Shown here in pieces: positions 45,184-64,000 of a stretch of 64,000 nt of DNA; position 1 is the first letter of the stretch; each line of letters begins with the position of its first letter. Location: the NCBI RefSeq assembly GCF_036170895.1, contig NZ_CP108036.1, forward strand, positions 5,573,501 to 5,637,500, given 5' to 3'. Below the pieces are notes generated by a model. The model had not been told where the DNA came from. It made no database searches and saw only the letters and a program-made list of their open reading frames with translations. Source of the stretch: Streptomyces erythrochromogenes (GTDB taxonomy: Bacteria; Actinomycetota; Actinomycetes; Streptomycetales; Streptomycetaceae). Made by a program: the position numbers and the translations under genes.

Positions 45184-45192
45184 CCGTTCCCG

Positions 45193-45224
45193 GCGCGACC
45201 TGCACGGCCTGCGCGACCTGCACG
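45193..45224. repeat. Short direct repeat between convergent genes
   Basis: Two copies of GCGCGACCTGCACG start 18 bp apart (45193 and 45211) in the 43-bp gap between the reductase and DUF4429 stops. No function is evident. Confidence 0.5.
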
Positions 45225-45226
45225 AC

Positions 45227-46069: not shown

Positions 46070-46144
46070 GCGCCACATGGTAAAGGGAGCCACCCCCGTG
46101 CGTCCCCCTCGATGCGGTGGCCGATTTCCGTGCCTCTACGCGCG

Positions 46145-47380: not shown

Positions 47381-47522
47381 TGGGACCAGCGTAGGAGACC
47401 GATTCCGGGCGTGGCGCGCCGGGTGACGGGGTTCACGCCCGACCGTGGGACGACGTGAGCGGCCGGCCGCCGGCCGCCGAGACCCGGGCGAAAGATCCGA
47501 AATGCCGTCTTTCGGGGGTGGG

Positions 47523-48179: not shown

Positions 48180-48550
48180 CGCCGGGCTCCTTTCTGACGC
48201 CGAGTGGGCGGTCAGAGTACCCGTGACCGACGGCCCGGAGGCCGATTGGCCTAGCCGTGCCGAGCCGTTTGCGAAGGGGCGCCCCGCCGGTCCCTCATCA
48301 CACGTTTGGGGCGGCCGTGCGGGGCGACCGCAGCTGCACCGGGGCGGCCGCGGGCCCGCCGCAAAGGCTGCCGGACGGGTCAACTCCGTACCGGTGAAAG
48401 GCCCGCCGGACGGTTCCAGCGAGGCTGTCGCCTATCAGGGTGGACCCGCCGGGCGCCTCTTCCGCCCGAGCGTCACCGCAGGTCAGCGTGGTGTCAGCGG
48501 AGCACCGGAAGCGGTCCGGGCGCCCGCCGTCCACAAGGAGTTGACCCGTC
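48180..48550. other. Intergenic region, 371 bp
   Basis: No gene is recognised here. It holds the ribosome site of the TetR gene at the left end (AAAGGAG on the minus strand), two perfect inverted repeats (48210-48228 and 48239-48252) close to that gene, and AAGGAG before the I36 protein at the right end. The middle, about 48260-48530, has GC-rich sequence with no clear feature. Confidence 0.6.
48210..48228. promoter_or_regulatory. Candidate TetR operator
   Basis: Inverted repeat GGTCA-N9-TGACC, 31 bp upstream of the TetR gene start, with a second dyad AGGCC-GATT-GGCCT at 48239-48252. The size and place fit autoregulation. Confidence 0.4.
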
Positions 48551-48946
48551 ATGCGTACGTGTGGAACCACGCGCCTCACCACCGTCCTCGCCGCGACCGC
48601 CCTGGCCCTCACCGCCCTCATCCCGACCACCGCAGGCACGGCGCACGCCGCGGGGCCGCCGGGCCTCGGGGCCTGCGCCAGCGGACAGCTGTGCCTGTGG
48701 GCGAAACCGGACTTCAAGGGCACCCGGCAGACCCATGAGCTGAGCACCCTCGACATCAACAGCTGTACCGCCCTGCCCGCCGGCACCAGCGCCCAGTCGC
48801 TGGTCAACCGCACCGGGCGCCCGGTCACGACCTACCAGTCGGCGGAGTGCGCGGAGACCGGCGAGTTCCAGACCTACCCGGGCGACGGGGTCTGGCTGCC
48901 CCAGTCCCCCTACCAGGTGAGGGCCTTCAAGGTGTGGGAGCGGTAG
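48551..48946 (+). CDS. Secreted peptidase-inhibitor I36-like protein
   Basis: Exported protein of 131 residues. A Sec signal peptide of about 33 residues ends THAAG or thereabouts. The mature part resembles family I36 (Streptomyces metalloprotease inhibitor type and beta/gamma-crystallin-like): CASGQLCLWAKPDFKGTRQT, then SCTALPAGTSAQSLVNRTGR and YQSAECAETGEFQTYPGDG. Four Cys would give two disulfides. Inhibitory activity is not proven. The last 20 bp overlap the 3' end of the potassium-channel gene on the other strand. Confidence 0.84.
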   Translation: MRTCGTTRLTTVLAATALALTALIPTTAGTAHAAGPPGLGACASGQLCLWAKPDFKGTRQTHELSTLDINSCTALPAGTSAQSLVNRTGRPVTTYQSAECAETGEFQTYPGDGVWLPQSPYQVRAFKVWER

Positions 48947-49751
48947 CTTCCCGCTGCGCCGGGGCGCCCGGCCCGGTGGCGGGCGGGGCGACGGCCGGCC
49001 GGACGGCGGCCGCGTCCGCCGCGCCGCCCAGCCGGGCGACCTCGCCGCGCAGCGCCCGTACCTCCGCCTGGAGCTCGCGGATCGCCGCCAGCTGGAGCCG
49101 CTCCGCCTGGTCGTCGCGCTCGAAGCGGGAGATGAACCACGCGGCGATGTTGGCGGTCACCACACCGAGCAGGGCGATCCCCGACAGCATCAGCCCGACC
49201 GCCAGGACGCGGCCGAGGCCGGTGGTGGGGGAGTGGTCGCCGTACCCGACCGTCGTCATCGTGGTGAAGGACCACCACACGGCGTCGCCCAGGTTCTTGA
49301 TGTTCCCGTCGGGCGCGTCCCGCTCCACGCTCAGCACGGCCAGTGAGCCGAACATCAGCAGCCCGACGACCGACCCGGCCACGTACGTCGTCAGCTGGAT
49401 CTGCGGGGCCATCCGGGCCCGCCGGCCCACCAGCATCAAGGTGGCCACGAGCCGCAGCAGCCGCAGCGGCTGCACGAGCGGCAGCAGCACGGCCGCCAGG
49501 TCCAGCCAGTGGGTCCGCACGAACCGCCCGCGGTCCGCCGAGAGGACCAGGCGCACCAGGTAGTCGGCGGCGAAGGCCCCCCACACCGCCCACTCCACGT
49601 AGGTGCAGGCGCCGTGCACCCGCGCGCTCGCGTCCGGAGCGACGATGGGCACGGCGTACGCCACGGCGAAGGCCACGGCGAGGACGAGCAGCGGGGTCTG
49701 GCTCCGCCGCTCCCACAGCAGCTGGCGGGATGGTTCCTTCATGCGGAGCAT
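48927..49751 (-). CDS. Potassium channel, six-helix ion-transporter family
   Basis: Membrane channel of 274 residues. Helices S1-S4 occupy about 20-115, with LDLAAVLLPLVQPLRLLRL as a partly charged S4 region; the pore loop has WWSFTTMTTVGYGDHSP with selectivity filter TVGYGD at 167-172, and the last membrane helix ends about 210. A C-terminal coiled-coil follows (QAERLQLAAIRELQAEVRAL). The S4 has few regularly spaced Arg, so voltage gating may be weak. ATG at 49751 is used; ATG at 49742 is also possible. Confidence 0.88.
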   Translation of the reverse strand: MLRMKEPSRQLLWERRSQTPLLVLAVAFAVAYAVPIVAPDASARVHGACTYVEWAVWGAFAADYLVRLVLSADRGRFVRTHWLDLAAVLLPLVQPLRLLRLVATLMLVGRRARMAPQIQLTTYVAGSVVGLLMFGSLAVLSVERDAPDGNIKNLGDAVWWSFTTMTTVGYGDHSPTTGLGRVLAVGLMLSGIALLGVVTANIAAWFISRFERDDQAERLQLAAIRELQAEVRALRGEVARLGGAADAAAVRPAVAPPATGPGAPAQREATAPTP

Positions 49752-49770
49752 CGTAGGCACCACGTAAAGA

Positions 49771-49804
49771 GGCGCGGGCCCCGGCCGAAGCCGGGACCCG
49801 CGCC
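49771..49804 (-). terminator. Terminator downstream of aceE
   Basis: Stem-loop GGCGCGGG(CC)CCGGC-CGAA-GCCGG(GA)CCCGCGCC with one small internal loop, 41 bp past the aceE stop on the minus strand. Confidence 0.65.
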
Positions 49805-49845
49805 CAGGACCGCGTACGCGGCGTCCACCCGGTTCCCGGCAGGGG

Positions 49846-52578
49846 TCAGGCGTCGCCGCCGGCCGCGCCCGGGTCCGCCGCCGCCACGTCGAGCAGCTGG
49901 TACTTGTCGACGGCCTGCTTCAGCAGCGAGCGGTCCACCTTCCCCGCCTTGGCCAGCTCGGTCAGCGTCGCCAGCACCACCGACTGGGCGTCGATGTGGA
50001 AGAAGCGCCGGGCCGCACCGCGCGTGTCCGCGAAGCCGAAGCCGTCCGCGCCCAGCGAGGTGTACGGGCCGGGCACCCACCGCGAGATCTGGTCCGGAAC
50101 CGACCGCATCCAGTCCGAGACCGCCACGAACGGCCCCTCCGCACCCGACAGCTTCCGCGTCACGTACGGGACGTGCTGCTCCTCCTCCGGGTGGAGCAGG
50201 TTGTACTCCTCCACCTCGACGGCCTCGCGCCGCAGCTCGTTCCAGGAGGTCGCCGACCAGACGTCCGCCCGGACGTTCCACTCCTCGGCGAGGATCCGCT
50301 GGGCCTCCAGCGCCCACGGCACCGCCACGCCGGACGCCATGAGCTGTGCCCCGATGGTCCCCGAGGTGCCCTGCGAGACCCGGTGGATGCCCTTGAGGAT
50401 GCCGTCCACGTCGACGCCCTCCGGCTCCGCCGGGTGCTGGATCGGCTCGTTGTAGACCGTCAGGTAGTAGAAGACGTCCTCGGCCTCGGGGCCGTACATC
50501 CGGCGCAGACCGTCCTGGACGATGTGCGCGATCTCGTACCCGTAGGCCGGGTCGTACGCCACACAGCCCGGGTTGGTCGAGGCCAGGAGCTGGGAGTGAC
50601 CGTCCGCGTGCTGCAGGCCCTCACCCGTGAGGGTGGTCCGGCCGGCGGTCGCACCCAGTACGAAACCGCGCGCCAGCTGGTCGGCCATCTGCCAGAACTG
50701 GTCACCCGTGCGCTGGAAACCGAACATCGAGTAGAAGACGTAGACCGGGATCAGCGGCTCGCCGTGCGTCGCGTACGCCGAACCCGCGGCGATCAGCGAG
50801 GCCGTGCAGCCCGCCTCCGAGATGCCGTCGTGCAGCATCTGGCCGGTCGGGGACTCCTTGTACGCGAGCAGCAGGTCGCGGTCGACCGCCTCGTACTGCT
50901 GGCCCAGCGGGTTGTAGATCTTGGCGCTCGGGAAGAAGGCGTCCATACCGAAGGTGCGGTACTCGTCGGGCGCGATCAGCACGAAGCGCTTGCCGATCTC
51001 CTTGTCCCGCATCAGGTCCTTCAGGATGCGGACGAAGGCCATCGTGGTGGCGATCGACTGCTGGCCCGAGCCCTTCTTGGCGGCCGCGTAGGTCTTCTCG
51101 TCCGGCAGCTGCAGCGGCTTGGCGCGCACCACACGGGTCGGCACGTAGCCGCCGTGCGCGTTGCGCTGGTCGTGCATGTACTGGATTTCGGGCGAATTGC
51201 GGCCCGGGTGGTAGTACGGCGGGGCGCCGCTCTCCAGCTGCGCGTCCGTGATCGGGATGTGGAGGCGGTCGCGGAAGCGCTTGAGGTCGTCGACCGTCAG
51301 CTTCTTCATCTGGTGCGTGGCGTTGCGGCCCTCGAAGTTCGGGCCGAGCGTCCAGCCCTTCACCGTCTGGGCCAGGATCACCGTCGGCTGGCCCTTGTGC
51401 GCCTTGGCCGCCGCGTACGCCGCGTAGACCTTCTTGTGGTCGTGACCGCCGCGGCCCAGGTGCTGGATCTGGTAGTCGGTCATGTTCTCGACCATCGCGC
51501 GCAGCCGCTGGTCGCCGCCGAAGAAGTGCTCACGGATGTACGCGCCCGACTCGGTGGCGTACGTCTGGAACTGCCCGTCGGGCGTGGAGTTCATCTTGTT
51601 GACCAGGATGCCGTCGCGGTCCTGGGCCAGCAGCGGGTCCCAGGAGCGGTCCCAGATCAGCTTGATGACGTTCCAGCCGGCGCCCCGGAACTGCGACTCC
51701 AGCTCCTGGATGATCTTGCCGTTGCCGCGGACCGGGCCGTCGAGGCGCTGCAGGTTGCAGTTCACGACGAAGGTCAGGTTGTCCAGGCCCTCGCGGGCGG
51801 CGATCGACAGCTGGCCGAGCGACTCCGGCTCGTCCATCTCACCGTCGCCGAGATACGCCCAAACGTGGGACTTGGAGGTGTCCGCGATGCCGCGCGCCTC
51901 CATGTACCGGTTCATCCGGGCCTGGTAGATGGCCCCCAGCGGACCGAGGCCCATCGAGACGGTCGGGAACTCCCAGAAGTCCGGCATCAGCCGCGGGTGC
52001 GGGTAGCTGGAGAGGCCGTACGGCGCCTTCGACTTCTCCTGGCGGAACGCGTCGAGCTGCTGCTCGGTGAGCCGGTCCAGGAGGTAGGCGCGGGCGTAGA
52101 TACCGGGAGAGGCGTGGCCCTGGAAGAAGATCTGGTCGCCGCCGTCGCCCTCGTCCTTGCCCCGGAAGAAGTGGTTGAAGCCCACGTCGTAGAGGGAGGC
52201 GGAGGAGGCGAACGTGGCGATGTGGCCGCCGACGCCGATCCCGGGACGCTGGGCGCGCGAGACCATGACGGCCGCGTTCCACCGGGTGGCGTTCAGGACC
52301 TTGCGCTCGATCTCCTCGTTGCCGGGGAAGAACGGCTCGTCCTTGGTGGCGATCGTGTTGACGTAGTCCGTGCTGCGCATCTCGGGCACGGCCACGCGCT
52401 TCTCGCGCGCCCGCTCGATCAGCCGCAGCATGAGGTAGCGGGCCCGTTCACGGCCCCGCTCGTCGACCGCTGCGTCCAGGGAGTCGAGCCACTCCTGCGT
52501 CTCCTCCGGATCGAAGTCCGGGACCTGACTCGGCAGGCCGCCAATGATGATCGGATTGCGATCGGATGCGGAAGCCAC
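49846..52578 (-). CDS. aceE: Pyruvate dehydrogenase E1, homodimeric
   Basis: Thiamine-diphosphate enzyme of 910 residues that decarboxylates pyruvate and acetylates the E2 lipoyl group. The thiamine motif is in [16 protein letters not shown] running on to [15 protein letters not shown], about residues 245-290. The catalytic loop regions [18 protein letters not shown] and [20 protein letters not shown] match AceE, and the middle and C-terminal transketolase-like domains are intact ([20 protein letters not shown]). GTG at 52578 follows GAAGGAA. It is transcribed alone, away from the DUF3052 gene, with a long 471-bp regulatory gap. Confidence 0.96.
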
Positions 52579-52650
52579 GCTGTTCCTTCGCTGTCGGGGA
52601 GTCCTGCTGAAGCTGTAACTGGGGGGCGCCGCCTCCCATGGTCTTACGCT

Positions 52651-52665
52651 CGGCCGTAATCGTCA
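52651..52665. repeat. Copy 1 of a 15-bp direct repeat (CGGCCGTAATCGTCA)
   Basis: Near the aceE side of the gap, 73 bp from its start. The identical copy at 52912-52926 has the same orientation. The repeat contains the palindrome CGGCCG. Confidence 0.7.
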
Positions 52666-52911
52666 TCCGTACCACTGGGTAATCCCTGCGATCGGCGGGG
52701 AGACCCGGCAAGGTGCGGACCGGTCCGGTTCCGCGGTGCGGGGTGGCGGGTGCGACCAAATCGCAACCTTACGCCCAGCCCGGTCACCGCTCCCGGGAGG
52801 CCGTTCGTCCCTCAAACAGGTAGGAAAGTCCTCATGCGACGCGAATGAGCTGGAATGGTGTGGGATGAATCACCAGAGGTGCACACGGGCACGCCGAAAG
52901 TTGCGGCGAGA

Positions 52912-52926
52912 CGGCCGTAATCGTCA
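52912..52926. repeat. Copy 2 of the 15-bp direct repeat
   Basis: Near the DUF3052 side, 124 bp upstream of its GTG, directly followed by the dyad ACCGT-TTCG-ACGGT. Confidence 0.7.
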
Positions 52927-53049
52927 CCGTTTCGACGGTCTCGGCGGCCGGGTACTTGCGCGATCCGCCGCGCCCGTGTGGACTACGCCCAATGCTGCGC
53001 GTACGCGCGCCGCCGAAGACATTCACCGAACATGAGCAGGAGGCACCCC

Positions 53050-53478
53050 GTGAGCGCGACCGCGGACCACGCGGAGAGCCTGGCCGCCCGGCTGGGTTTC
53101 CAGTCCGAACAGGTGGTCCAGGAGATCGGCTACGACAACGACGTCGATCAGGAATTCCGTGACCTCGTCGAAGAACTCGTCGGCGAACTCGTCGACGAGG
53201 AGTACGACGACGTCGCCGACGCGGTTCTGCTGTGGTTCCGCGAGGACGACGGCGATCTGACGGACGCGCTGGTCGATGCCACCGAGCTGGTCGAGGACGG
53301 CGCACTGATCCTGCTGCTGACCCCCAAGACGGGCCGTGACGGCTACGTCGAGGCCAGCGACATCAGCGAGGCCGCCGAGACCGCCGGCCTCTCGCAGACC
53401 AGGAGCGTCAGCGTCGGCAAGGAATGGGCCGCCACCAAGCTGGTGACGCCCAAGACCGCCGCCAAGTCCAAGCGCTGA
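53050..53478 (+). CDS. DUF3052-family protein
   Basis: Acidic cytoplasmic protein of 142 residues of the actinobacterial DUF3052 family (M. tuberculosis Rv2239c-like). Seen are LAARLGFQSEQVVQEIGYDN, a strongly acidic helical stretch around 40-60 (VEELVGELVDEEYDDVADAV), WFREDDGDLTDALVDA and a basic C-terminus (TPKTAAKSKR). Function is unknown. GTG at 53050 has AGGAGG 6 nt upstream; the frame further upstream is unlike the family. Its position between aceE and the ahpE-like gene is conserved in actinobacteria. Confidence 0.88.
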   Translation: MSATADHAESLAARLGFQSEQVVQEIGYDNDVDQEFRDLVEELVGELVDEEYDDVADAVLLWFREDDGDLTDALVDATELVEDGALILLLTPKTGRDGYVEASDISEAAETAGLSQTRSVSVGKEWAATKLVTPKTAAKSKR

Positions 53479-53508
53479 GCCGCGCCCGCTGCCGAGCGGA
53501 CACGCTTC

Positions 53509-53548
53509 CACACCCCGCCGACCAGGTGACCCCGGTCGGCGGGGTGTG
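53509..53548 (+). terminator. Terminator after the DUF3052 gene
   Basis: Perfect 15-bp stem CACACCCCGCCGACC / GGTCGGCGGGGTGTG with a 10-nt loop, followed by TGCGTTT, 31 bp past the stop. Confidence 0.75.
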
Positions 53549-53653
53549 TGCGTTTCGTGCGTTTCACGGACCCGGGTACGCCCGGTCAGGATCTAGGCTG
53601 TGACTCACCCGAACAGCCCAACGCGGGGATGCGGGAACGAAGGGATGCGAGAG

Positions 53654-54112
53654 ATGGCGATCGAGGTCGGCGACAAGGCCCCGGACTTCGAGCTCAAGGA
53701 CAACCACGGCGCCACCGTGCGGCTCTCCGACTTCCGGGGGGAGAAGGCCGTGGTGCTGCTCTTCTACCCGTTCGCGTTCACCGGTGTCTGCACCGGCGAG
53801 CTGTGCGAGCTGCGCGACCAGCTGCCGCGCTTCCAGAACGACGATGTCCAGCTCCTCGCCGTCTCCAACGACTCCGTGCCGACCCTGCGGGTCTTCGGCG
53901 AGCAGGAGGGCCTGGAGTACCCGCTGCTGTCGGACTTCTGGCCGCACGGCGAGACCTCGCGCGCCTACGGCGTCTTCGACGAGGACAAGGGCTGCGCGGT
54001 CCGCGGCACCTTCATCATCGACAAGGACGGCGTGGTGCGCTGGACTGTCGTCAACGGACTGCCCGACGCACGTGACCTGAACGAGTACATCAAGGCGCTC
54101 GACTGCCTCTGA
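53654..54112 (+). CDS. ahpE: Peroxiredoxin, AhpE-like
   Basis: Thioredoxin-fold peroxidase of 152 residues that reduces hydroperoxides and peroxynitrite. The peroxidatic Cys46 is in [15 protein letters not shown] and a second Cys51 is five residues on, with the conserved Arg in [15 protein letters not shown]. AhpE acts with mycothiol/mycoredoxin in M. tuberculosis. ATG at 53654 is chosen over ATG at 53645 because AAGGGA lies at the better distance. Position beside DUF3052 and aceE matches the Mycobacterium ahpE locus. Confidence 0.9.
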
Positions 54113-54165
54113 GTGCGTCTGCACGGTCCGTTACGTGCAGTTCCCTGCGAAAACCGCTTACAGGC

Positions 54166-54193
54166 GGGAACCCGTCACTAGGATCGAAACGTT
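54166..54193 (+). promoter_or_regulatory. Possible ECF-sigma promoter of terD1
   Basis: GGGAAC at 54166-54171 and CGTT at 54190-54193 are arranged like stress (ECF) promoters, but the 18-bp spacing is longer than usual for that class. It is 59 bp upstream of the terD1 start. Confidence 0.3.
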
Positions 54194-54251
54194 GATCCGG
54201 TAGCAACCGCACGACGGGGCACCGCCCCACACAGAACCCAATGGAGGACCC

Positions 54252-54827
54252 GTGGGAGTCAGCCTCAGCAAGGGCGGCAACGTCTCGCTGACCAAGGCCG
54301 CGCCTAACCTGACGGCGGTCATCGTCGGTCTGGGCTGGGACGCTCGCACCACCACCGGTGTCGACTTCGACCTCGACGCCAGCGCGATCCTGACCAACGA
54401 CCAGGGCAAGGTCGCCAGCGACGCGAACTTCGTCTTCTTCAACAACCTCAAGAGCCCCGACGGCTCGGTCGAGCACACCGGTGACAACACCACCGGTGAG
54501 GGCGAGGGCGACGACGAGGCGATCAAGGTCAACCTCGCCGGTGTCCCGGGCGACGTCGCCAAGATCGTCTTCCCGGTCTCGATCTACGAGGCCGAGACCC
54601 GCCAGCAGAGCTTCGGCCAGGTCCGCAACGCCTACATCCGCGTGGTGAACCAGGCCGACAACACCGAGCTCGCCCGCTACGACCTCTCCGAGGACGCCTC
54701 GACCGAGACCGCCATGGTCTTCGGCGAGCTCTACCGCAACGGTGCGGAGTGGAAGTTCCGCGCCATCGGCCAGGGCTACGCCTCCGGCCTGCGCGGCATC
54801 GCGCAGGACTTCGGCGTCAACGTCTGA
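54252..54827 (+). CDS. terD1: TerD-family tellurium/stress protein, copy 1
   Basis: Calcium-binding TerD protein of 191 residues. The family start [19 protein letters not shown] is followed by VDFDLDASA and the acidic loop [17 protein letters not shown], which carry the Ca ligands, then [20 protein letters not shown] and [20 protein letters not shown]. Length is normal. The GTG start follows ATGGAGGA. TerD proteins form membrane-linked complexes with TerC and respond to metal, redox and phage stress. In S. coelicolor the homologues also influence development. Confidence 0.94.
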
Positions 54828-54889
54828 GTCCGAGAGCAGTTCATCCGTCCGGCGCCGTGCACTGTGTGTACGGCGCCGGACGTGCTTGG

Positions 54890-54970
54890 CCCGCACCACC
54901 GCACCGCTGCTGCGCCCGCTTGACCGCACCACTGCCTCACCGCTCCACCGCCACATCGCCACACCGTCGT
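54890..54970 (+). other. C-rich, G-poor leader tract before terD2
   Basis: A run of CACC/CACCG-type units (CACCACCGCACCG, TCACCGCTCCACCG, CACACCG) of about 80 nt with much more C than G fills the spacer upstream of terD2. Such transcripts are weakly structured and resemble Rho loading regions. It is noted as composition only. Confidence 0.45.
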
Positions 54971-54987
54971 CCGGGGAGGACCACAAC

Positions 54988-55563
54988 ATGGGCGTCACAC
55001 TCGCCAAGGGGGGCAATGTCTCCCTGTCCAAGGCCGCGCCGAACCTCACCAGGGTTCTGATCGGTCTCGGATGGGACGCGCGCTCGACCACGGGAGCCGA
55101 CTTCGACCTCGACGCCAGCGCGCTGCTCTGCAACGGCGGCCGGGTGCTGGGGGACGAGTACTTCGTCTTCTACAACAACCTGAAGAGCCCCGAGGGCTCC
55201 GTCGAACACACGGGGGACAACCTCACGGGCGAGGGCGACGGCGACGACGAGTCGATCATCATCGACCTCACCAAGGTGCCGGCGAATGTGGACAAGATCG
55301 TCTTCCCGGTCTCGATCCACGAGGCGGACACCCGCCGGCAGAGCTTCGGCCAGGTCAGCAACGCCTTCATCCGCGTGGTCAACCAGGCCGACGGCCAGGA
55401 ACTGGCCCGCTACGACCTTTCCGAGGACGCTTCCAGCGAGACCGCGATGATCTTCGGCGAGGTCTACCGGTACGGCGGCGAATGGAAGTTCCGTGCGGTG
55501 GGGCAGGGGTACGCGTCGGGGCTCCGGGGCATCGCTCTAGACTTCGGGGTCAACGTTTCGTAA
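54988..55563 (+). CDS. terD2: TerD-family tellurium/stress protein, copy 2
   Basis: TerD protein of 191 residues, the tandem paralogue of terD1, with the same motifs: [47 protein letters not shown] and [20 protein letters not shown]. About three-quarters of positions seem to match copy 1; the Gln/Thr loop near residue 50 differs ([11 protein letters not shown] against [10 protein letters not shown], with a Cys). ATG at 54988 follows GGGGAGGA. The TerC-like gene starts just after its TAA. Confidence 0.94.
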
Positions 55564-55590
55564 AGCCGTACAAGACGCATGGGGTGCCAG

Positions 55591-56709
55591 GTGCCAGTGG
55601 TTCTGAAAACCTTCGGCTGGTCGTTCGCCATCACGGCGCTCGGCCTCGCCTTTGCCGCGTGGCAGTGGGGGTGGGAGGCGTTCGGGGTCGTACTGATCCT
55701 GTCGATCCTCGAAATCTCGCTGTCCTTCGACAACGCGGTCGTCAATGCCGGAATCCTGAAGAAGATGAATGCCTTCTGGCAGAAGATCTTCCTCACCGTC
55801 GGCATCCTGATCGCCGTCTTCGGTATGCGGCTGGTCTTCCCGGTGGCGATCGTCGCCATCAGCGCGAAGGTCGGCCCCATCGAGGCGATCGAGCTGGCCC
55901 TGGACCAGCCGGAGCAGTACGAGGCCCTGGTCACCGACGCCCACCCGGCCATCGCCGCGTTCGGCGGAATGTTCCTGCTGATGATCTTCCTGGACTTCAT
56001 CTTCGAGGAGCGCGAGCACAAGTGGCTCGCGTGGCTGGAGCGTCCGCTGGCCAAGCTCGGCAAGGTCGACATGCTGTCGGTCTGCATCGCCCTGATCGCG
56101 CTGCTGGTCTCGGCGATGACCTTCGCCGTCCACGCCCACACCAGCACCGGCGCCCAGGACAAGTCCGCCACCGTGCTGCTCGCCGGCGTCGCCGGCCTGA
56201 TCACGTACCTGATCGTCGGCGGTCTGTCCTCGTACTTCGAGGACAAGCTGGAGGAGGAAGAGGAGCGCGAGCACGAGGAGGAGGAGAAGGCCAAGGCCGC
56301 GGGCAAGCCCGTCTCCGCCGTCGGCCTCGCCGGCAAGGCCGCCTTCTTCCTCTTCCTCTACCTCGAGGTCCTCGACGCCTCGTTCTCCTTCGACGGGGTC
56401 ATCGGCGCCTTCGCCATCACCAACCACATCTTCTGGATGGCGCTCGGCCTCGGCATCGGAGCCATGTACGTCCGTTCGCTCACGGTCTACCTGGTCCGCC
56501 AGGGCACCCTGGACGACTACGTCTACCTGGAGCACGGCGCGCACTACGCGATCGGCGCGCTCGCCGTCATCCTGCTGGTCACCATCCAGCACGAGATCAG
56601 CGAGATCATCACCGGCCTCATCGGCGTGGTGTTGATCGCCGCCTCCTTCTGGTCCTCGGTGCGCCGCAACAAGCGCCTGGAACCGGAGGGTTCCACCGTC
56701 GACGCATGA
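55591..56709 (+). CDS. TerC-like membrane protein (DUF475)
   Basis: Integral membrane protein of 372 residues with about eight or nine helices. Two acidic membrane motifs typical of the TerC superfamily occur: LSFDNAVVNAGIL in the first third and ASFSFDGVIGAFAIT in the last third, likely the metal-binding sites. A charged cytoplasmic loop rich in Glu (EEEEEREHEEEEKAKA) separates the halves. TerC proteins bind TerD/TerB and are linked to Mn and other metal export at the membrane. GTG at 55591 is used, giving VPVVLKTFGWSF; ATG at 55579 is also in frame. Confidence 0.88.
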   Translation: MPVVLKTFGWSFAITALGLAFAAWQWGWEAFGVVLILSILEISLSFDNAVVNAGILKKMNAFWQKIFLTVGILIAVFGMRLVFPVAIVAISAKVGPIEAIELALDQPEQYEALVTDAHPAIAAFGGMFLLMIFLDFIFEEREHKWLAWLERPLAKLGKVDMLSVCIALIALLVSAMTFAVHAHTSTGAQDKSATVLLAGVAGLITYLIVGGLSSYFEDKLEEEEEREHEEEEKAKAAGKPVSAVGLAGKAAFFLFLYLEVLDASFSFDGVIGAFAITNHIFWMALGLGIGAMYVRSLTVYLVRQGTLDDYVYLEHGAHYAIGALAVILLVTIQHEISEIITGLIGVVLIAASFWSSVRRNKRLEPEGSTVDA

Positions 56710-56738
56710 CCGCGCCGTTAATGCGGAACGCTCCACTG

Positions 56739-56784
56739 CGGGGCGGTCCGCCGGGTTCACGGACCCGGCGGACCGCCCCGTTTT
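56739..56784 (+). terminator. Intrinsic terminator after the TerC-like gene
   Basis: Perfect 18-bp stem CGGGGCGGTCCGCCGGGT with its complement and a 6-nt loop, followed by TTTT. It separates the TerD-TerC unit from the TerA-like gene. Confidence 0.85.
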
Positions 56785-56831
56785 CCGTAGGCTTCGCGGG
56801 GACCAGGGGATCAGGACCAGGGGGGTAGGGG

Positions 56832-57572
56832 ATGGGCTTCTTCGACGGCATCTTGGGCAGCCGGGCGGTGCAGTTCCAGTCGGGCAGTGCCTCGTCGAAC
56901 GCGATCGAGCTGACCAAGCGACATTCGACGGTGTCGCTCACCAGGCAGGGCGCCGTCCACGGCAACCTGCGCGTCAACCTGTCCTGGCGCATGCGCACCT
57001 CGGACATCGGGGGCCGCTCCGGCCAGAGCGGCCAGCTCTTCCGCCACCCGTTCAAGCTGTTCAAGCCGGAAATGGTGCAGGCGCACACCCAGGGCATGGT
57101 CAACGTCGACCTCGACATGGGCTGCCTGTACGAGCTGACCGACGGCACCCGCGGCGCCGTCCAGCCGCTGGGCAATCTGCTGGGCGACCTCAACGACCCG
57201 CCGTACGTCAAGCTCAGCGGCGACGACCGGTTCGGATCGGGGTCCGGGGAGACCCTTTACATCAACCTCGACCACGCCGACGAGATCAAGCGGCTGCTGG
57301 TCTTCGTCTACATCTACGACCAGACCCCGGCCTTCGACCGGACGCACGCCATGGTCACCCTCTACCCCGTGACGGGCCCGAGGATCGAGATCCCGCTGGA
57401 CGAGCGGCACCCGCAGGCCCGCTCCTGCGCCGTCGTCTCCCTGGAGAAGGCCAAGGGCGAGCTCGTCGTCAAGCGCGAGGTGAAGTTCGTGTACGGGTTC
57501 CAGTCCGAGCTGGACCGGCTGTACGGCTGGGGGCTCCAGTGGGGGCGGGGCTACAAGAGCACCAAGAGGTGA
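56832..57572 (+). CDS. TerA-like tellurium-resistance protein
   Basis: Protein of 246 residues related to the C-terminal (TerD-like) part of TerA. Seen are AIELTKRHSTVSLTRQG and LRVNLSWRMRTSDIGGRSG, then VNVDLDMGCLYELTDGTRGA (the acidic Ca-type site) and KLSGDDRFGSGSGETLYINL, and FVYIYDQTPAFDRTHAMVTL. There is no membrane segment. It is expected to join the TerD complex. It is convergent with the next TerD gene, 18 bp from its stop. Confidence 0.83.
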   Translation: MGFFDGILGSRAVQFQSGSASSNAIELTKRHSTVSLTRQGAVHGNLRVNLSWRMRTSDIGGRSGQSGQLFRHPFKLFKPEMVQAHTQGMVNVDLDMGCLYELTDGTRGAVQPLGNLLGDLNDPPYVKLSGDDRFGSGSGETLYINLDHADEIKRLLVFVYIYDQTPAFDRTHAMVTLYPVTGPRIEIPLDERHPQARSCAVVSLEKAKGELVVKREVKFVYGFQSELDRLYGWGLQWGRGYKSTKR

Positions 57573-57590
57573 CCGGAGCCCCCCCGGCCC

Positions 57591-58343
57591 TCAGCGGCGG
57601 ATGAACTGCGGGCCCTGCGCCGGCAGCCGGAAGGACGGGTCGCCGCCCGGGCCCGGCACCGGAGCCGGGGACACCGGCTGCGGGTACCCGTAGGCGGGCT
57701 GGGAGGTCGGCGGAGCCTGCGTCGGCGGGGTCATCAGGGCCGTCTGCTCCGAGACCGGCCCCGCCGCGGCGCCCGCGACCGCGTCGGGCTCGGCCGCGTT
57801 CTCGTCGACCGAGATCCCGTGGTCGGTCGCCAGGCCCACCAGGCCGTCGGAGTAGCCCTCGCCGAGCGCCCGGAACTTCCATCCGTCGCCCCGGCGGTAC
57901 AGCTCCCCGCAGATCAGCGCCGTCTCCGCGCCGGTCTCGGGCCGTACGTCGAAGTAGGCCAGCGGCTCGGAGCCACCGGTCGCGGTGGCGTCGTAGAGCA
58001 GGATCCGCAGGTCGCGGACCCGCTCGAAGGGGACGTCCTCGGCCGAGGCGACCACCAGGATCCGGTCCACGCTCGGGGTCACCGTGCGCAGGTCCGCCTG
58101 GACGGCGTCGGTGATCGCGTCGCCGATCTGCTTCTTGCCGAGGCGCCAGACGGCCCCCGAGGGGTGCCGGGGCTGGTTGTAGAAGACGAAGTCCTCGTCC
58201 GAACGCACCCGGCCGTCCGGGCCCACCAGCAGCGCCGAAGCGTCCACGTCCGGCACCTCGGGGCCGCCGGTCCAGCGCAGCACCGCCCGGACCGCCACGG
58301 GGGCCACCGGGATGTTCGAGCCCTTCTGCATCGCGTGCGTCAT
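57591..58343 (-). CDS. TerD-domain protein with proline-rich tail
   Basis: Protein of 250 residues. The TerD domain (about 1-180) has VLRWTGGPEVPDVDASALLV, DEDFVFYNQPRHPSGAVWRL and GWKFRALGEGYSDGLVGL; the acidic Ca loops are weaker than in terD1/terD2. The C-terminal 70 residues are Pro/Gln/Tyr-rich (PPTQAPPTSQPAYGYPQP), a flexible, perhaps protein-binding tail. ATG at 58343 is used; an ATG at 58352 is also served by GGGAGG. It diverges from the biosynthetic operon, with a 194-bp shared gap. Confidence 0.85.
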   Translation of the reverse strand: MTHAMQKGSNIPVAPVAVRAVLRWTGGPEVPDVDASALLVGPDGRVRSDEDFVFYNQPRHPSGAVWRLGKKQIGDAITDAVQADLRTVTPSVDRILVVASAEDVPFERVRDLRILLYDATATGGSEPLAYFDVRPETGAETALICGELYRRGDGWKFRALGEGYSDGLVGLATDHGISVDENAAEPDAVAGAAAGPVSEQTALMTPPTQAPPTSQPAYGYPQPVSPAPVPGPGGDPSFRLPAQGPQFIRR

Positions 58344-58467
58344 GCACGTCATCCTGCCCTCCCGGGGTGGAGCGGGACAATGCGGCCCCCCGTAGGGCCT
58401 TGTACCGATCGCGAGAGCTGGGCATGGTGCAAGAGGGTTACCTGAACTTCATGTGCTTGAGGAACTC

Positions 58468-58497
58468 TTGACTCACGTTCGTACGTACTATTACCGG
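58468..58497 (+). promoter_or_regulatory. Candidate promoter of the biosynthetic ter operon
   Basis: TTGACT at 58468-58473 and TACCGG at 58492-58497 with 18-bp spacing form a plausible sigma-70-type promoter about 45 bp upstream of the aldolase ATG. The spacer holds the 8-bp palindrome GTACGTAC (58481-58488), a possible operator. Confidence 0.45.
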
Positions 58498-58537
58498 CCA
58501 TGCCAGTTGGGCCGCCGAGGCAGTACGGGGGAAGCAC

Positions 58538-59704
58538 ATGCGTCACTTTGGGCACGTATCGCCCACGGTCCGTAAGGACCTCTTCCACCAGGAACCGGCG
58601 GAATTCACCGGGGCCTCGCCCGCCCGCGTCCTCGCGGCGGCGCTCGGCGCCACCCTCTACAGTCCCGCCACCCGCCCCGCGCTGGCTGCGGACATCCGCA
58701 AGCAGGCAGGCCGCGGAGTCGTCTCCATGGTCCTCTGCCTGGAGGATTCCATCAGCGACGCCGATGTCGTCGGGGCCGAGGAGAACCTCGTTCGCCAGTT
58801 CTCCGACCTCGACGGCGACGCCGCCGAGGTTCCGCTGCTGTTCATCCGCGTCCGCACGCCCGAGCAGATTCCGGACCTGGCGCGCCGCCTGGGCCCCTCG
58901 GTGCGGCACCTGGCCGGATTCGTACTCCCGAAGTTCGACGAGCGGCGCGGCATCCCCTTCCTCGAAGCCGTCGCCGACGCGGAGGCCGCGAGCGGGCGGG
59001 ACCGGCTGTATGCCATGCCGGTCCTGGAGACCCCGGAGCTCCTCCACCTCGAAACCCGCGTCGAAGCCCTCGCCGGCATCTCCCGCACGGTCAACAGCCA
59101 CCGCGAGCGGGTCCTGGCGCTGCGCCTCGGCGTGACCGACTTCTGCTCCGCCTACGGGCTGCGCCGCACCCCCGACATGACCGCCTACGACGTCAAGATC
59201 GTCGCCGGCGTCATCGCGGACGTCGTCAACATCCTGAGCAGGGCGGACGGCACCGGCTTCACCGTGACCGGCCCCGTCTGGGAGTACTTCCGCAGCCAGC
59301 AGCGCCTCTTCAAGCCGCAGCTGCGCCGCAGCCCCTTCCTGGAAGAGGGCGTCGAGGAACTGCGCACCGCGCTGATCGAGCACGACCTGGACGGGCTACT
59401 GCGCGAGATCGAGCTCGACCGGGCCAACGGGCTGCTCGGCAAGACCTGCATCCACCCCGCCCACGTCACGCCCGTGCACGCCCTGTCGGTGGTTTCCCAC
59501 GAGGAGTTCTGCGACGCCCAGGACATCCTGCGGCCCGAGCGCGGCGGCGGCGGAGTGATGCGTTCTGCTTATACGAACAAAATGAATGAGGTGAAGCCCC
59601 ACCGGGCCTGGGCCGAGCGCACCATGCTGCGCGCCGAGGTCTTCGGTGTGGCGAAGGAGCAGGTCGGCTTCGTCGACCTGCTCACGGCCGGGCTCCAGGT
59701 GTGA
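58538..59704 (+). CDS. HpcH/HpaI aldolase, CitE-like (ter module)
   Basis: TIM-barrel C-C lyase of 388 residues, CitE-like. Metal and carboxylate motifs are VVSMVLCLEDSISDAD (Glu), FIRVRTPEQ, FVLPKFDERRG, YAMPVLETPELL (Glu) and RLGVTDFCSAYGLRR (Asp). It is longer than CitE (about 300), with a C-terminal extension ending GFVDLLTAGLQV. A CitE-like enzyme is one of the typical Ter-module biosynthesis genes. It opens the operon; the next gene starts in its stop (GTGA overlap), showing coupling. The true substrate is unknown. Confidence 0.85.
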   Translation: MRHFGHVSPTVRKDLFHQEPAEFTGASPARVLAAALGATLYSPATRPALAADIRKQAGRGVVSMVLCLEDSISDADVVGAEENLVRQFSDLDGDAAEVPLLFIRVRTPEQIPDLARRLGPSVRHLAGFVLPKFDERRGIPFLEAVADAEAASGRDRLYAMPVLETPELLHLETRVEALAGISRTVNSHRERVLALRLGVTDFCSAYGLRRTPDMTAYDVKIVAGVIADVVNILSRADGTGFTVTGPVWEYFRSQQRLFKPQLRRSPFLEEGVEELRTALIEHDLDGLLREIELDRANGLLGKTCIHPAHVTPVHALSVVSHEEFCDAQDILRPERGGGGVMRSAYTNKMNEVKPHRAWAERTMLRAEVFGVAKEQVGFVDLLTAGLQV

Positions 59705-62247
59705 GCGGGCCGGTGCCGAAGCAGACGACGAGGAAGGGCAAGACGATCGACGAGGTGTGGTCGGGTACCTGGGTCGCGGACCGGCTGGGCGTCGGCCTGC
59801 ACGACTCCGAAGGGGGTCCGCGGCCGGGTCCGAGGCTGAGCCCGCGGCTGACGGAGCTGCTGGGCCTGGCCCTGCGGCGCAACCCCAAGCGCGCGCACCT
59901 GCTCGTCTCGCAGGTGCTGGGCAAGCACGTCCCGCAGTCCCCGCACACGGTGTACGCCGCCGGATACGGGCTCGGGACCCGCGTACGGGCGCTGCTCGGC
60001 GACGAGGCCGCGGCGACCGCCGTGGTCCTCGGCTACGCCGAGACCGCCACCGGGCTCGGCCACTGCGTCGCGGACGGCCTGGGCTCCGCCCCGTACCTGC
60101 ACTCCACCCGCCGGCCCGTGCCGGGCGTGGCGACGGCCGGCGGCTTCGAGGAGGCGCACTCGCACGCCACCTCCCACCTGCTGCTGCCCGAGAACCCCGC
60201 GCTCCTCGCCGGCGACGGGCCCCTCGTCCTCGTCGACGACGAGTTCTCCACCGGCAACACGGTCCTCAACACCATCCGCGACCTGCACGCCCGCCACCCC
60301 CGCTCGCGCTACGTGGTCGTCGCCCTCGTCGACATGCGCTCCCCGGCCGACCGCGACCGGCTCACGGCCTTCGCCGCCGAGCTGGGCGCCCGGGTGGACC
60401 TGATCGCCCTCGCCTCCGGCACGGTCTCCCTCCCGGACGGCGTCCTCGCCAAGGGACAGGCGCTGGTCGAGGAGTACGAGCAGACGGCCGCGGCGGACGC
60501 GGCCGGGCCGGCAGGCTCCCCCCGGCCCGTCCTGCGCGTCGACCTGCAGTGGCCGCACGGCCTCCCGGACGGCGGCCGCCACGGCTTCACCCCCGCACAC
60601 CGCCAGCGCCTGGAGGCCGCCCTGCCGGACCTCGCCGCCCGGCTCACGGCCGCGCTCGGCACCGAGCCCGGACGGGTCCTCGTACTCGGCAACGAGGAGC
60701 TCATGTACGCGCCGCTGCGCCTCGCCAAGGCGCTGGAGGAGACGGGCGCGGCAGCCGAGGTCCGCTTCTCCACCACCACCCGCTCCCCGGTGCTCGCCGT
60801 GGACGACCCCGGCTACGCCATCCGCACCCGGCTCGTCTTCCCGGCCCACGACACCCCCGCCGACGGCCCCGGCGACCGCTACGCCTACAACGTGGCCCGC
60901 CCGTCGGACGGCGCCGGCTTCGACACCGTCGTCGCCGTCGTCGACTCGGCCGGCGACACCCCCGCACTGCACACGGGGCTCCTCGCGGCCCTCGCCCCGC
61001 ACACCGGCCGACTCGTCCTGGCCGTCGTCCCGTCCTACATGCCGCCCAAGGCGTCCATACCGTCCGGTACGCCCGCCGGCACCCCCGACCACCGGCAGGA
61101 GCCGATCATGACCGAGCCCCTGCGCGGCCCCGCCTTCTCCTCCTACGCCCCCGAGGACGTCGGCTGGCTGCTCCAGGACCTCTCCGGCGTCCAGCTCGAA
61201 GCCCCGACCGAGGAGCGCGAGGAGGCCATCCAGGCCGGCGGCGCCCACTACGCCGAGTCCCTGCCCGTCGAGTACCAGCCCTCGCCCCAGTACCAGGAGC
61301 TCTACCGCAGCGCGCTGACCGCCTCCGCCGCCCGCGTGGCCCGCGCCGTCGGCACGGTCACCGAGACCGTCCTCGCCGAACGCTCCCCCTCCCCGGTCCT
61401 GGTCTCCCTGGCCCGCGCCGGCACCCCCGTCGGCGTCCTGATGCGCCGCTGGGCCCACGCCCGGCACGGCCTGGACCTGCCGCACTACGCCGTCTCCATC
61501 GTGCGCGGCCGCGGCATCGACGCCAACGCCCTGCGCTGGCTGGCCGCCCACCACGACCCCGCCGACGTCGTCTTCGTCGACGGCTGGACCGGCAAGGGCG
61601 CCATCACCCGCGAGCTGAAGGAAGCCCTGGCGCAGTTCCCCGGCTTCGACCCGGAGATCGTCGTCCTCGCCGACCCCGGCTCCTGCGTGCCCACCTACGG
61701 CACCCGGGAGGACTTCCTGATCCCCTCCGCCTGTCTCAATTCCACCGTCTCCGGACTCATCTCGCGTACGGTTCTGAGGTCCGACCTGGTCGGACCCGCC
61801 GACTTCCACGGCGCGAAGTTCTACCGCGAGCTCGCCGGAGCCGACGTCTCCGTCGAATTCGTCGACGCCGTCGCCGCCCACTTCGACGAAGTGGCGGACG
61901 CCGTCGACGAGGAGGTCAAGGAGCTCCTCGCGGCCGACCGCACCCCGACCTGGGAGGGCTGGGCGGCGGTCGAGCGGATCAGCGAGGAGTACGGCATCCA
62001 CGACGTGAACCTCGTCAAGCCCGGCGTCGGAGAGACCACCCGCGTGCTGCTGCGCCGGGTGCCGTGGAAGATCCTGGCGCAGCGCGGCGCCGGGGCCGAC
62101 CTGGACCACGTACGCCTGCTCGCCGAGCAGCGCGGCGTCCCGGTGGAAGAGGTCGACGGGCTGCCCTACACCTGCGTCGGGCTCATCCACCCCCGATTCA
62201 CGCGCGGCGCCACCGGCGCCGACGGAAAGGCTGTGGCCTCCAAGTGA
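59701..62247 (+). CDS. Fused double phosphoribosyltransferase with TRSP and PELOTA-like domains
   Basis: Large protein of 848 residues. The first phosphoribosyltransferase (about 60-270) has the PRPP loop LVLVDDEFSTGNTVLN (178-187). A TRSP domain follows (about 275-440) with FSTTTRSPVLAVDDP. A linker of about 30 residues (PKASIPSGTPAGTP) leads to a second unit (470-845) annotated elsewhere as StiP-like: PRPP-type loop DVVFVDGWTGKGAITREL (621-638), a metal/thiol-bearing ADPGSCVPTYG, and a C-terminal PELOTA-like stretch PWKILAQRG to CVGLIHPR. It would act in making a nucleoside-like compound. An internal ATG at 61108 with AGGAG could start the second half alone. Other genomes may carry the halves separately. 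Confidence 0.82.
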   Translation: MSGPVPKQTTRKGKTIDEVWSGTWVADRLGVGLHDSEGGPRPGPRLSPRLTELLGLALRRNPKRAHLLVSQVLGKHVPQSPHTVYAAGYGLGTRVRALLGDEAAATAVVLGYAETATGLGHCVADGLGSAPYLHSTRRPVPGVATAGGFEEAHSHATSHLLLPENPALLAGDGPLVLVDDEFSTGNTVLNTIRDLHARHPRSRYVVVALVDMRSPADRDRLTAFAAELGARVDLIALASGTVSLPDGVLAKGQALVEEYEQTAAADAAGPAGSPRPVLRVDLQWPHGLPDGGRHGFTPAHRQRLEAALPDLAARLTAALGTEPGRVLVLGNEELMYAPLRLAKALEETGAAAEVRFSTTTRSPVLAVDDPGYAIRTRLVFPAHDTPADGPGDRYAYNVARPSDGAGFDTVVAVVDSAGDTPALHTGLLAALAPHTGRLVLAVVPSYMPPKASIPSGTPAGTPDHRQEPIMTEPLRGPAFSSYAPEDVGWLLQDLSGVQLEAPTEEREEAIQAGGAHYAESLPVEYQPSPQYQELYRSALTASAARVARAVGTVTETVLAERSPSPVLVSLARAGTPVGVLMRRWAHARHGLDLPHYAVSIVRGRGIDANALRWLAAHHDPADVVFVDGWTGKGAITRELKEALAQFPGFDPEIVVLADPGSCVPTYGTREDFLIPSACLNSTVSGLISRTVLRSDLVGPADFHGAKFYRELAGADVSVEFVDAVAAHFDEVADAVDEEVKELLAADRTPTWEGWAAVERISEEYGIHDVNLVKPGVGETTRVLLRRVPWKILAQRGAGADLDHVRLLAEQRGVPVEEVDGLPYTCVGLIHPRFTRGATGADGKAVASK
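61097..61110 (+). promoter_or_regulatory. Internal ribosome site and ATG within the fused gene
   Basis: AGGAG at 61097-61101 is spaced 6 nt from ATG at 61108, in frame with the fused gene at residue 470, exactly at the end of the Pro/Gly/Thr linker and just before the second catalytic unit (MTEPLRGPAFSSYAPEDVG). Confidence 0.5.
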
Positions 62248-63074
62248 CTGTCCTCGTAGCCAGTGACCTCGACCGTACGCTCATCTACTCGGCGGCCGCC
62301 CTCGGTCTGACCGTGCCCGACCCGGTGGCCCCGCGGCTGCTGTGCGTCGAGGTCCACGAGAGCAAGCCGCTGTCCTACATGACGGAGACGGCCGCGGCCC
62401 TGCTGGCGGAGCTCACCGAGGACCCGTCCGTCGTCTTCGTCCCCACCACCACCCGCACGCGCAAGCAGTACCAGCGCATCCGCTTCCCCGGCCGCCCGGC
62501 CCGGTACGCGATCTGCGCCAACGGCGGGCAGCTCCTCGTCGACGGCGTGCCGGACCGCGACTGGCGGCGGCAGGTCGCGGCCCGCCTGGCCGAGGAGTGC
62601 GCCCCGCTGGAGGAGGTCCACGAGCACATGCTGTCCGCCGCCGACCCGGCGTGGCTGCGCAAGGCCCGGTTGGCGGAGGACCTCTTCGCCTACCTCGTCG
62701 TCGAACGCGCCCTGGTCCCCGACGAATGGCTGAAGTCCCTGACCGAATGGGCCGGGGCCCGCGGCTGGACGGTCTCCCTCCAGGGCCGGAAGATCTACGC
62801 CGTGCCGCGCCCGCTCACCAAGAGCGCCGCGATGCACGAGGTCGCCCGCCGGACCGGAGCGACCACGACCCTGGCCGCCGGCGACTCGCTCCTCGACGCC
62901 GACCTGCTGCTCGCGGCCGACGCCGCCTGGCGCCCGGGCCACGGCGAACTGGCCGACGCGCGCTGGACGGCGCCTTCGGTGACCGCCCTCGCCGAGGCGG
63001 GCGTCCTGGCCGGCGAGGAAATAGTGCGCGCATTCACCCGCGAGGCCGGGCGGCTCGGCAGACTGGACGCATGA
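62244..63074 (+). CDS. HAD-family phosphatase (ter module)
   Basis: HAD hydrolase of 276 residues, Cof-like. The nucleophile Asp8 and Asp10 are in VASDLDRTLIYS, motif II is VPTTTRTRKQ, the Lys is in RPLTKSAAMHEVARR, and the second acid pair is LAAGDSLLDADLLLAA. It would remove phosphate from a sugar or nucleotide intermediate. The GTG at 62244 overlaps the stop of the fused gene, and its own stop overlaps the methyltransferase ATG, so the four genes are strictly coupled. Confidence 0.88.
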   Translation: MTVLVASDLDRTLIYSAAALGLTVPDPVAPRLLCVEVHESKPLSYMTETAAALLAELTEDPSVVFVPTTTRTRKQYQRIRFPGRPARYAICANGGQLLVDGVPDRDWRRQVAARLAEECAPLEEVHEHMLSAADPAWLRKARLAEDLFAYLVVERALVPDEWLKSLTEWAGARGWTVSLQGRKIYAVPRPLTKSAAMHEVARRTGATTTLAAGDSLLDADLLLAADAAWRPGHGELADARWTAPSVTALAEAGVLAGEEIVRAFTREAGRLGRLDA

Positions 63075-63730
63075 GCAAAGGCAACAGCACGAAGATCACG
63101 GACGAGCTGTACCAGTACATGCTCGACCACAACCCCCCGCTGGACTCCGTTCAGCGGGGGCTGGTGGCGAGGACCTACGCCACGTTCCCGGACGTCGCCG
63201 GGATGCAGTCCGCGGAGGAGCAGGGGCCGCTGCTGGCCTTCCTCGTCCGCCTGACCGGCGCCCGCCACATCGTCGAGGTCGGCACCTTCACCGGCTTCTC
63301 GGCCCTGTCGATGGCCCAGGCACTGCCCGCCGACGGCCGCATCATCGCCTGCGACGTCTCCGAGGAGTGGACGGCGTACGGCAGGGAGGCCTGGGAGCAG
63401 GCCGGCGTCGCCGACCGCATCGAGCTGCGCATCGCGCCGGCCCTGGAGACCCTGCGCGCGATGCCCGCCGAACCCCACATCGACATGGCGTACGTGGACG
63501 CCGACAAGGAGAGCCAGATCTCCTACTGGGAGGAGCTCGTACCGCGGCTCCGCCCCGGCGGCCTGATCGTCACGGACAACACGCTGTACCACGGCACGGT
63601 CCTCGACGAGTCGGCCACCGGCTCGGCGGCGGGCGTACGCGCCTTCAACGACCACGTCGCGGCCGACCCGCGTATGGACTCCGTCCTGCTGGCGATCTCG
63701 GACGGCCTGACGCTCTCGCGCAAGCGGTAG
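63071..63730 (+). CDS. O-methyltransferase, SAM-dependent (ter operon)
   Basis: Catechol-type methyltransferase of 219 residues. The SAM motif I is HIVEVGTFTGFSALSMA (about 65-80), followed by ADGRIIACDVSEEW, HIDMAYVDADKESQISYWEE (metal-site Asp) and GGLIVTDNTLYHG (metal-site Asp-Asn). It resembles the CCoAOMT/YrrM group. ATG at 63071 overlaps the HAD stop. Its coupling to the Ter biosynthesis genes suggests that the product is methylated, but it could be a separate function. The stop is close to a convergent small gene. Confidence 0.88.
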   Translation: MSKGNSTKITDELYQYMLDHNPPLDSVQRGLVARTYATFPDVAGMQSAEEQGPLLAFLVRLTGARHIVEVGTFTGFSALSMAQALPADGRIIACDVSEEWTAYGREAWEQAGVADRIELRIAPALETLRAMPAEPHIDMAYVDADKESQISYWEELVPRLRPGGLIVTDNTLYHGTVLDESATGSAAGVRAFNDHVAADPRMDSVLLAISDGLTLSRKR

Positions 63731-63756
63731 CCCCGATTCTCCGGCCGCCCCTTCGG

Positions 63757-63978
63757 TCAGCCGCAGCCGCCGCCGCAGCAGCCCCCGCCGCCCGCGCCGC
63801 CCATGGGGCGCGCGGCCGCGGGGGCGCTGCTCGACCCGCCCACGGCGACGGCGGACAGCAGCTTGACGGTGTCGGCGTGCCCGGCCGGGCAGTCGGCAGG
63901 GGCGGAGGACTCGGCCATGGGGCGGCTGACCTCAAAGGTGTCGTCGCAGGTCCGGCAGCGGAATTCGTAACGAGGCAT
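63757..63978 (-). CDS. FmdB-family zinc-ribbon protein
   Basis: Small protein of 73 residues. The N-terminal FmdB zinc ribbon is PRYEFRCRTCDDTFEVSRPM followed by CPAGH, giving three Cys and a His as likely zinc ligands. The rest is low-complexity Gly/Ala with a Cys cluster CCGGGCG at the end, which could bind metal. ATG at 63978 gives MPRYEF, the family start. Function is unknown. Confidence 0.82.
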   Translation of the reverse strand: MPRYEFRCRTCDDTFEVSRPMAESSAPADCPAGHADTVKLLSAVAVGGSSSAPAAARPMGGAGGGGCCGGGCG

Positions 63979-64000
63979 GCGCACAGGCTAAGCGCGCCCG

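Follow-up and report, generated by a model that had tools for sequence, protein, structure and literature searches.

A Ter-dependent stress response accompanied by a pathway for a nucleoside-like metabolite was predicted by Anantharaman, Iyer and Aravind in 2012, as cited in PMC7824862, PMC8115787, PMC12839542 and other papers. In the recent paper PMC8115787, the product of this gene set is still no more than a predicted nucleoside-like metabolite. For Klebsiella, PMC9933665 links ter to envelope stress. Here we describe a member of the Ter biosynthetic system predicted in 2012, located at positions 54252-63730 of a 64,000-nucleotide stretch of Streptomyces erythrochromogenes (8.5-Mb contig NZ_CP108036.1, positions 5,573,501 to 5,637,500; the whole stretch is called the window below). 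With the predicted system it shares TerD, a TerC-type protein, TerA, a CitE-like lyase, a phosphoribosyltransferase (PRTase) joined to TRSP, StiP-PELOTA and HAD. It differs from that system in that ATP-grasp is missing, PRTase-TRSP and StiP-PELOTA are fused, and an O-methyltransferase gene follows HAD in some species. The four-domain fused enzyme, the ATP-grasp that was not found and two conserved promoter-like elements are the distinctive traits of this locus. We lean, with moderate confidence, towards a Streptomyces core stress module in which a co-regulated membrane set accompanies an ATP-grasp-free pathway to the predicted nucleoside-like product. The locus is chromosomal, has only four core enzyme activities, carries conserved promoter-like elements and belongs to a tractable genus, which makes it a good place to look for the metabolite.

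Comparison with the closest loci places these traits more precisely. The ter plasmid locus of Klebsiella (L024) likewise has the four core enzymes next to ter genes, but they are encoded by separate genes in the order ATP-grasp, PRTase, HAD, StiP, CitE, on a plasmid, and VWA, TerY-C, kinase-like and phosphatase genes are also present. Plasmids of Tsukamurella, Mycolicibacterium and Prescottella (L022, L169 and L170) share with the window the order CitE, PRTase, StiP, HAD as well as DUF475 and TerD, and ATP-grasp was not found in them either. Their PRTase and StiP are separate genes, however, and a coiled-coil gene immediately precedes CitE; its Streptomyces counterpart is found downstream, on the opposite strand. 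The Ter system of the jumbo phage ME3 (L026; described in PMC7824862) resembles the window in DUF475, TerD, PRTase, HAD and StiP, while CitE and ATP-grasp were not found in the 22.8-kb stretch that we scanned.

Within Streptomyces the module seems to be nearly universal. Of the 199 genomes of the genus that were sampled, 195 have StiP. In a draw of 296 genomes from the class, 69 carry it (68 with scores above the family cut-off), as do six of 149 taken from the phylum, four of the six belonging to the same genus. For comparison of gene order we took, out of 587 confirmed places, the best 80, and this set is therefore biased to the closest relatives. The order TerD-TerD-DUF475-TerA-antisense TerD-CitE-fusion-HAD was identical in all 65 loci with enough upstream sequence, and the PRTase/StiP fusion was intact in 79 of the 80, the remaining one ending at a contig edge. 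The initial annotation, made from the letters of the window, had placed a Ter module in a Streptomyces core region, and both the genome counts and the constant order bear this out.

The membrane half starts with two TerD genes on the forward strand, at 54252-54827 (Pfam PF02342, 283 bits; nearest solved structure 3ibz) and 54988-55563 (281 bits). In the second, the Pfam domain begins at residue 83 of the mechanically called open reading frame, which corresponds to the ATG at 54988. The acidic Ca-loop stretches proposed for both proteins align with those of the solved TerD structures 3ibz and 2kxt in a whole-length alignment, and we take the acidic residues to be Ca binders. Also on the forward strand, a TerC-like membrane protein was recognised at 55579-56709 as DUF475 (PF04332, 446 bits; TerC, PF03741, 76 bits). 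The gene at 56832-57572 (+) reached no Pfam family above threshold, and the TerD profile gave no better than E 0.051. Its description as TerA-like is supported by a 35% alignment with terA of a Klebsiella plasmid, and it aligns at 38% with a TerD-family gene of a Pseudomonas plasmid. The TerD-domain protein with a Pro-rich tail is encoded on the minus strand at 57591-58352 (PF02342, 140 bits), and alignment with 3ibz shows that its Ca-loop residues are mostly lost. Of the 12 TerD matches in the source genome, most lie far away from this locus. An Rfam search of window positions 45000-64000 at gathering thresholds gave no match.

The enzyme half, all on the forward strand, consists of a CitE-like C-C bond lyase at 58538-59704 (C-C_Bond_Lyase, PF15617, 402 bits; weak match to a solved malyl-CoA lyase), an 848-aa fusion protein at 59701-62247, a HAD-type phosphatase at 62244-63074 and an O-methyltransferase at 63071-63730 (PF01596, 180 bits). 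Consecutive genes share 4-base stop/start overlaps at 59701-59704, 62244-62247 and 63071-63074. The HAD protein reached no Pfam family, and its NCBIfam match (HAD-IIB-MPGP, E 3.7e-4) is under the cut-off of that model. It aligns at 46% with the gene following StiP in Tsukamurella, and HAD-like catalytic motifs can be made out by eye. The O-methyltransferase gene directly follows HAD in just 24 of the 76 Streptomyces loci having 2 kb of downstream sequence, and it is found elsewhere in the locus in four more. We therefore rejected it as a core member of the module and treat it as a clade-specific neighbour. The four-gene operon of the initial annotation thus stands with regard to all its genes and overlaps, but the methyltransferase falls outside the conserved operon.

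In the fusion protein, whose nearest relatives are those of S. erythrochromogenes and its kin, Pfam recognised PRTase_2 (residues 53-240, positions 59857-60420, 233 bits), TRSP (residues 290-431, 60568-60993, 131 bits), StiP (PF11202, residues 480-724, 61138-61872, 357 bits) and the L7Ae/L30e-like PELOTA_1 (residues 751-830, 61951-62190, 118 bits). The protein had been read as a double PRTase-TRSP. Membership in the PRTase-TRSP family is confirmed, as PF15609 and PF12500 both score far above threshold. Only one such pair is present, however; a second TRSP is ruled out by the StiP and PELOTA matches that Pfam gives in the second half. Structure comparison matched the PRTase_2 domain to the PRTase fold, and the match list of the PRTase-TRSP model is filled by this half. 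The TRSP profile aligned in hhalign with PRTase_2 at P 1.8e-4 over 57 columns, with StiP at 0.004 and with four classical PRTases of the source genome at 0.02 or worse, and TRSP is possibly a degenerate PRTase-like domain. The predicted StiP model showed a moderate match to the phosphoribosyltransferase fold, and the PELOTA model is L7Ae-like. We consider StiP, with moderate confidence in the model, as a putative second PRTase-fold domain. An invariant StiP stretch, FVDGW-x2-KG-x-I, was aligned with the phosphoribosyl pyrophosphate (PRPP) loop of PRTase_2 in one comparison (P 0.0065) and not in another.

The combination of such a fold with PELOTA could also be read in another way. StiP-PELOTA would be a PyrR-like, nucleotide-sensing and RNA-binding regulator fused to the enzyme making its ligand, and not a pathway enzyme. 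Solved structures of PyrR and HGPRT match the StiP model with Z values less than 1 apart, i.e. they are tied, so PyrR is not favoured. Moreover, 39 StiP residues ahead of PELOTA are invariant among 29 sequences, as expected of an active site, and in most non-Streptomyces loci that we read StiP is a separate gene within the enzyme cluster. We find a regulatory role rather unlikely, though it is the alternative that survives best.

Outside the genus, tblastn recovered relatives of the fused enzyme in 2566 plasmid records, mostly from Klebsiella, Escherichia, Enterobacter and Salmonella, and in four phage records. We scanned 16 non-Streptomyces loci with custom profiles, several of these loci being profile seeds themselves; L109 and L110 were omitted because they nearly duplicate L023 and L026. 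Of the 16, 14 contain TerD, and in L108 and L166 it was not detected, which supports the proposed coupling of the Ter module to the predicted metabolite pathway. The HAD gene was found in 12, using a profile that has the 62244-63074 gene among its seeds. The order CitE-PRTase-StiP-HAD is seen in seven loci (Tsukamurella, Mycolicibacterium, Prescottella, G050, Alkaliphilus, Lactococcus and the viral-catalogue contig L108), and the order ATP-grasp-PRTase-HAD-StiP-CitE in four (Pseudomonas, Klebsiella, Aromatoleum and Polaromonas). The other five are partial or different: Brevibacillus has CitE-PRTase-StiP, Vibrio PRTase-StiP-CitE, phage ME3 PRTase-HAD-StiP and scaffold L027 PRTase-StiP with CitE antisense. 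In the last of them, L120 (genome G130), a diverged PRTase and a StiP-like gene form a pair next to TerD and TerA-like genes, and CitE and HAD were not found in the stretch scanned. The shared core is the lyase, PRTase-TRSP, StiP-PELOTA and usually HAD.

Two of these loci raise the question whether the pathway serves salvage or repair of damage of the nicotinamide adenine dinucleotide (NAD)/ADP-ribose type, with no signal synthesis. In L108, Macro and ADP-ribosylglycohydrolase genes come after the pathway, and in phage ME3, Appr-1-p processing and NAD synthetase genes are annotated some 5 and 6 kb ahead of PRTase. Genes of this type occur in these two loci only and none is annotated in the other plasmid stretches that we read, which makes the salvage explanation improbable.

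The initial annotation saw no ATP-grasp gene in view and suggested a check of the region beyond 64000. None is to be expected there. In the source genome, the sole match of the ATPgrasp_Ter profile has 28.5 bits in a 1106-aa frame and is not convincing, and a profile scan of the 80 Streptomyces loci, which covered 5.5 to 21 kb in each, found no ATP-grasp. We therefore rejected an ATP-grasp gene just past the window end. Among the non-Streptomyces loci it was not found in 11 of 16, so its absence is usual for this branch. It is present in the other five (Pseudomonas, Klebsiella, Aromatoleum, Polaromonas and L108), all of which are seeds of the ATP-grasp profile used. As it occurs in five loci and not in 11, ATP-grasp does not define the whole Ter biosynthetic system and is a lineage-specific extra. 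Across the 199 genomes of the genus, the ATPgrasp_Ter profile gave matches above 100 bits in 80, as counted by eye, and it also matches in 13 of 14 control genomes. We examined four of those 80 neighbourhoods, and no Ter or pathway query other than ATP-grasp matched there.

Alignment of upstream regions showed one deeply conserved block ahead of the first TerD and one ahead of CitE. The block before TerD contains an element of the extracytoplasmic function (ECF) sigma type, GGAAC-N18-CGTTGA, at 54167-54195 (+), which is present in all 64 Streptomyces upstream regions. An inverted repeat, GGATC-N8-GATCC, covers its -10 region at 54181-54198 in 58 of the 64. Mean pairwise identity in the block (54167-54198) is 0.90, versus 0.38 just upstream and 0.64 downstream. 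The element before CitE, GGAAC-N18-CGTACT followed by ATTACCGGCC, lies at 58461-58499 (+); CGTACT is kept in 62 of 75 loci and GGAAC-N18-CGT in 68 of 75. It looks promoter-like because GGAAC (identity 0.97) and the -10 block (0.98) are conserved while the spacer (0.54) and flanks (0.30 to 0.66) vary. In the 250 bases before the other genes, GGAAC-N18-CGT was absent from the second TerD (0/65), DUF475 (0/67), antisense TerD (0/75) and HAD (0/80), and it precedes TerA in six of 66 loci. Among 101 genomes of the genus, 79 have a single copy of the exact 19-mer core before TerD and 77 a single copy of the CitE 16-mer CGTACTATTACCGGCC; the positions of these matches relative to StiP were compared by eye in a few genomes only. 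The reversed patterns had no match in the 101 genomes. The consensus alone is unspecific in the source genome, where it occurs at 11 and 10 places, so the case for the elements rests on their conservation. The presence of like ECF-type elements before the first TerD and CitE suggests shared co-regulation of both halves of the module.

The sigma factor involved is possibly of the envelope-stress ECF type. In S. coelicolor, sco2368 is listed as a sigma-E target on the basis of chromatin immunoprecipitation sequencing and motif search, and its promoter is predicted to lie 317 bp upstream (PMC6767563, Table 1). The first TerD is the probable ortholog of SCO2368, as judged from the upstream gene. 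The counterpart of the published sigma-E string is located at 53948-53976, inside the upstream AhpC/TSA-family gene, where the -35 reads GGCGAG versus the published GGCAAC. The AAC of that -35 is kept in 14 of the 59 loci in which the anchor was found (of 64). The conservation of the element 85 bp before the first TerD suggests that it is the real ECF promoter and a candidate for sigma-E or another ECF factor.

The elements also bear on the possibility that these genes are mere neighbours in a conserved core region and no functional unit. Synteny of the core region is general in Streptomyces, and the O-methyltransferase is an example of an incidental neighbour. However, the first TerD and CitE have a promoter-like type in common, and PRTase and StiP, mostly together with CitE, are linked with TerD also in Bacillota, Pseudomonadota, other Actinomycetota and phage, in differing orders. 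We regard chance neighbourhood as very improbable. Signalling through proteolysis, as would follow from the title of Pfam PF11202 and the NCBI product names that call StiP a cysteine protease, is the least credible explanation, because none of the columns has an invariant Cys among the 29 sequences (the commonest Cys columns have it in 24, 25 and 24, with substitutions in distant members), the predicted StiP model is like PRTases, and PMC7824862, in writing of phage ME3, uses the plural 'PRTases', StiP being the second gene of this kind in that phage. No cysteine protease was among the matches listed for StiP (50 rows in each of two lists), which proves nothing alone, and the database label 'cysteine protease StiP' is probably misleading.

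In the core stress module that we favour, envelope or related stress would plausibly turn on both operons through one ECF sigma class. The TerD/TerD/DUF475/TerA set would act at the membrane, where it would probably sense or handle Ca or another divalent metal. The CitE-like lyase would make or trim a small carbon acid, and the PRTase_2 domain would use PRPP to place ribose-5-phosphate on a base or acid. With RNA or a nucleotide bound by PELOTA, StiP may then perform another step that depends on PRPP or a nucleotide, and phosphate removal by HAD would yield the nucleoside-like product. A bolder and, in our opinion, improbable version would see the fusion as an RNA-associated two-site phosphoribosyl machine, or a three-site one if TRSP is also PRTase-like. 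PELOTA would hold RNA, and the PRTase-fold domains would build or exchange a base either on this RNA or on a nucleotide that is tethered. The outcome would be a signal of envelope stress for the TerD/DUF475 complex to read, and everything would belong to one ECF sigma regulon. For the search for the product, our results set apart the non-core genes (ATP-grasp and methyltransferase) and suggest cell-envelope stress as inducer.

The module likely has a further member. About 1 kb past the window, a coiled-coil-like gene with a weak EzrA match lies on the minus strand (L010:3957-5297, source genome C1:5638457-5639797), and it is homologous (36%) to the gene that immediately precedes CitE in Tsukamurella. 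Of the 66 Streptomyces loci for which 8 kb of sequence is available, 65 have a homolog on the minus strand downstream of HAD, and this constancy is why we count it as a likely member. A profile search also placed the family ahead of CitE in L022, L119, L169 and L170, with L022, L169 and L170 being profile seeds.

Several other neighbours were noticed. In the viral-catalogue contig L108 (IMGVR_UViG_3300019373_000210), the pathway, including ATP-grasp, has no TerD in view and adjoins VWA, FtsK-type and papain-fold toxin-domain genes. AIM24-family genes, identified by annotation or similarity, adjoin the Ter module in L022, L119, L120, L164 and L169. Beyond the coiled-coil-like gene in the source genome, L010:5306-10471 carries tRNA-Val followed by genes for a phage-type integrase, a DUF3631 protein and a Prim-Pol protein, and resembles an integrated element adjoining the module.

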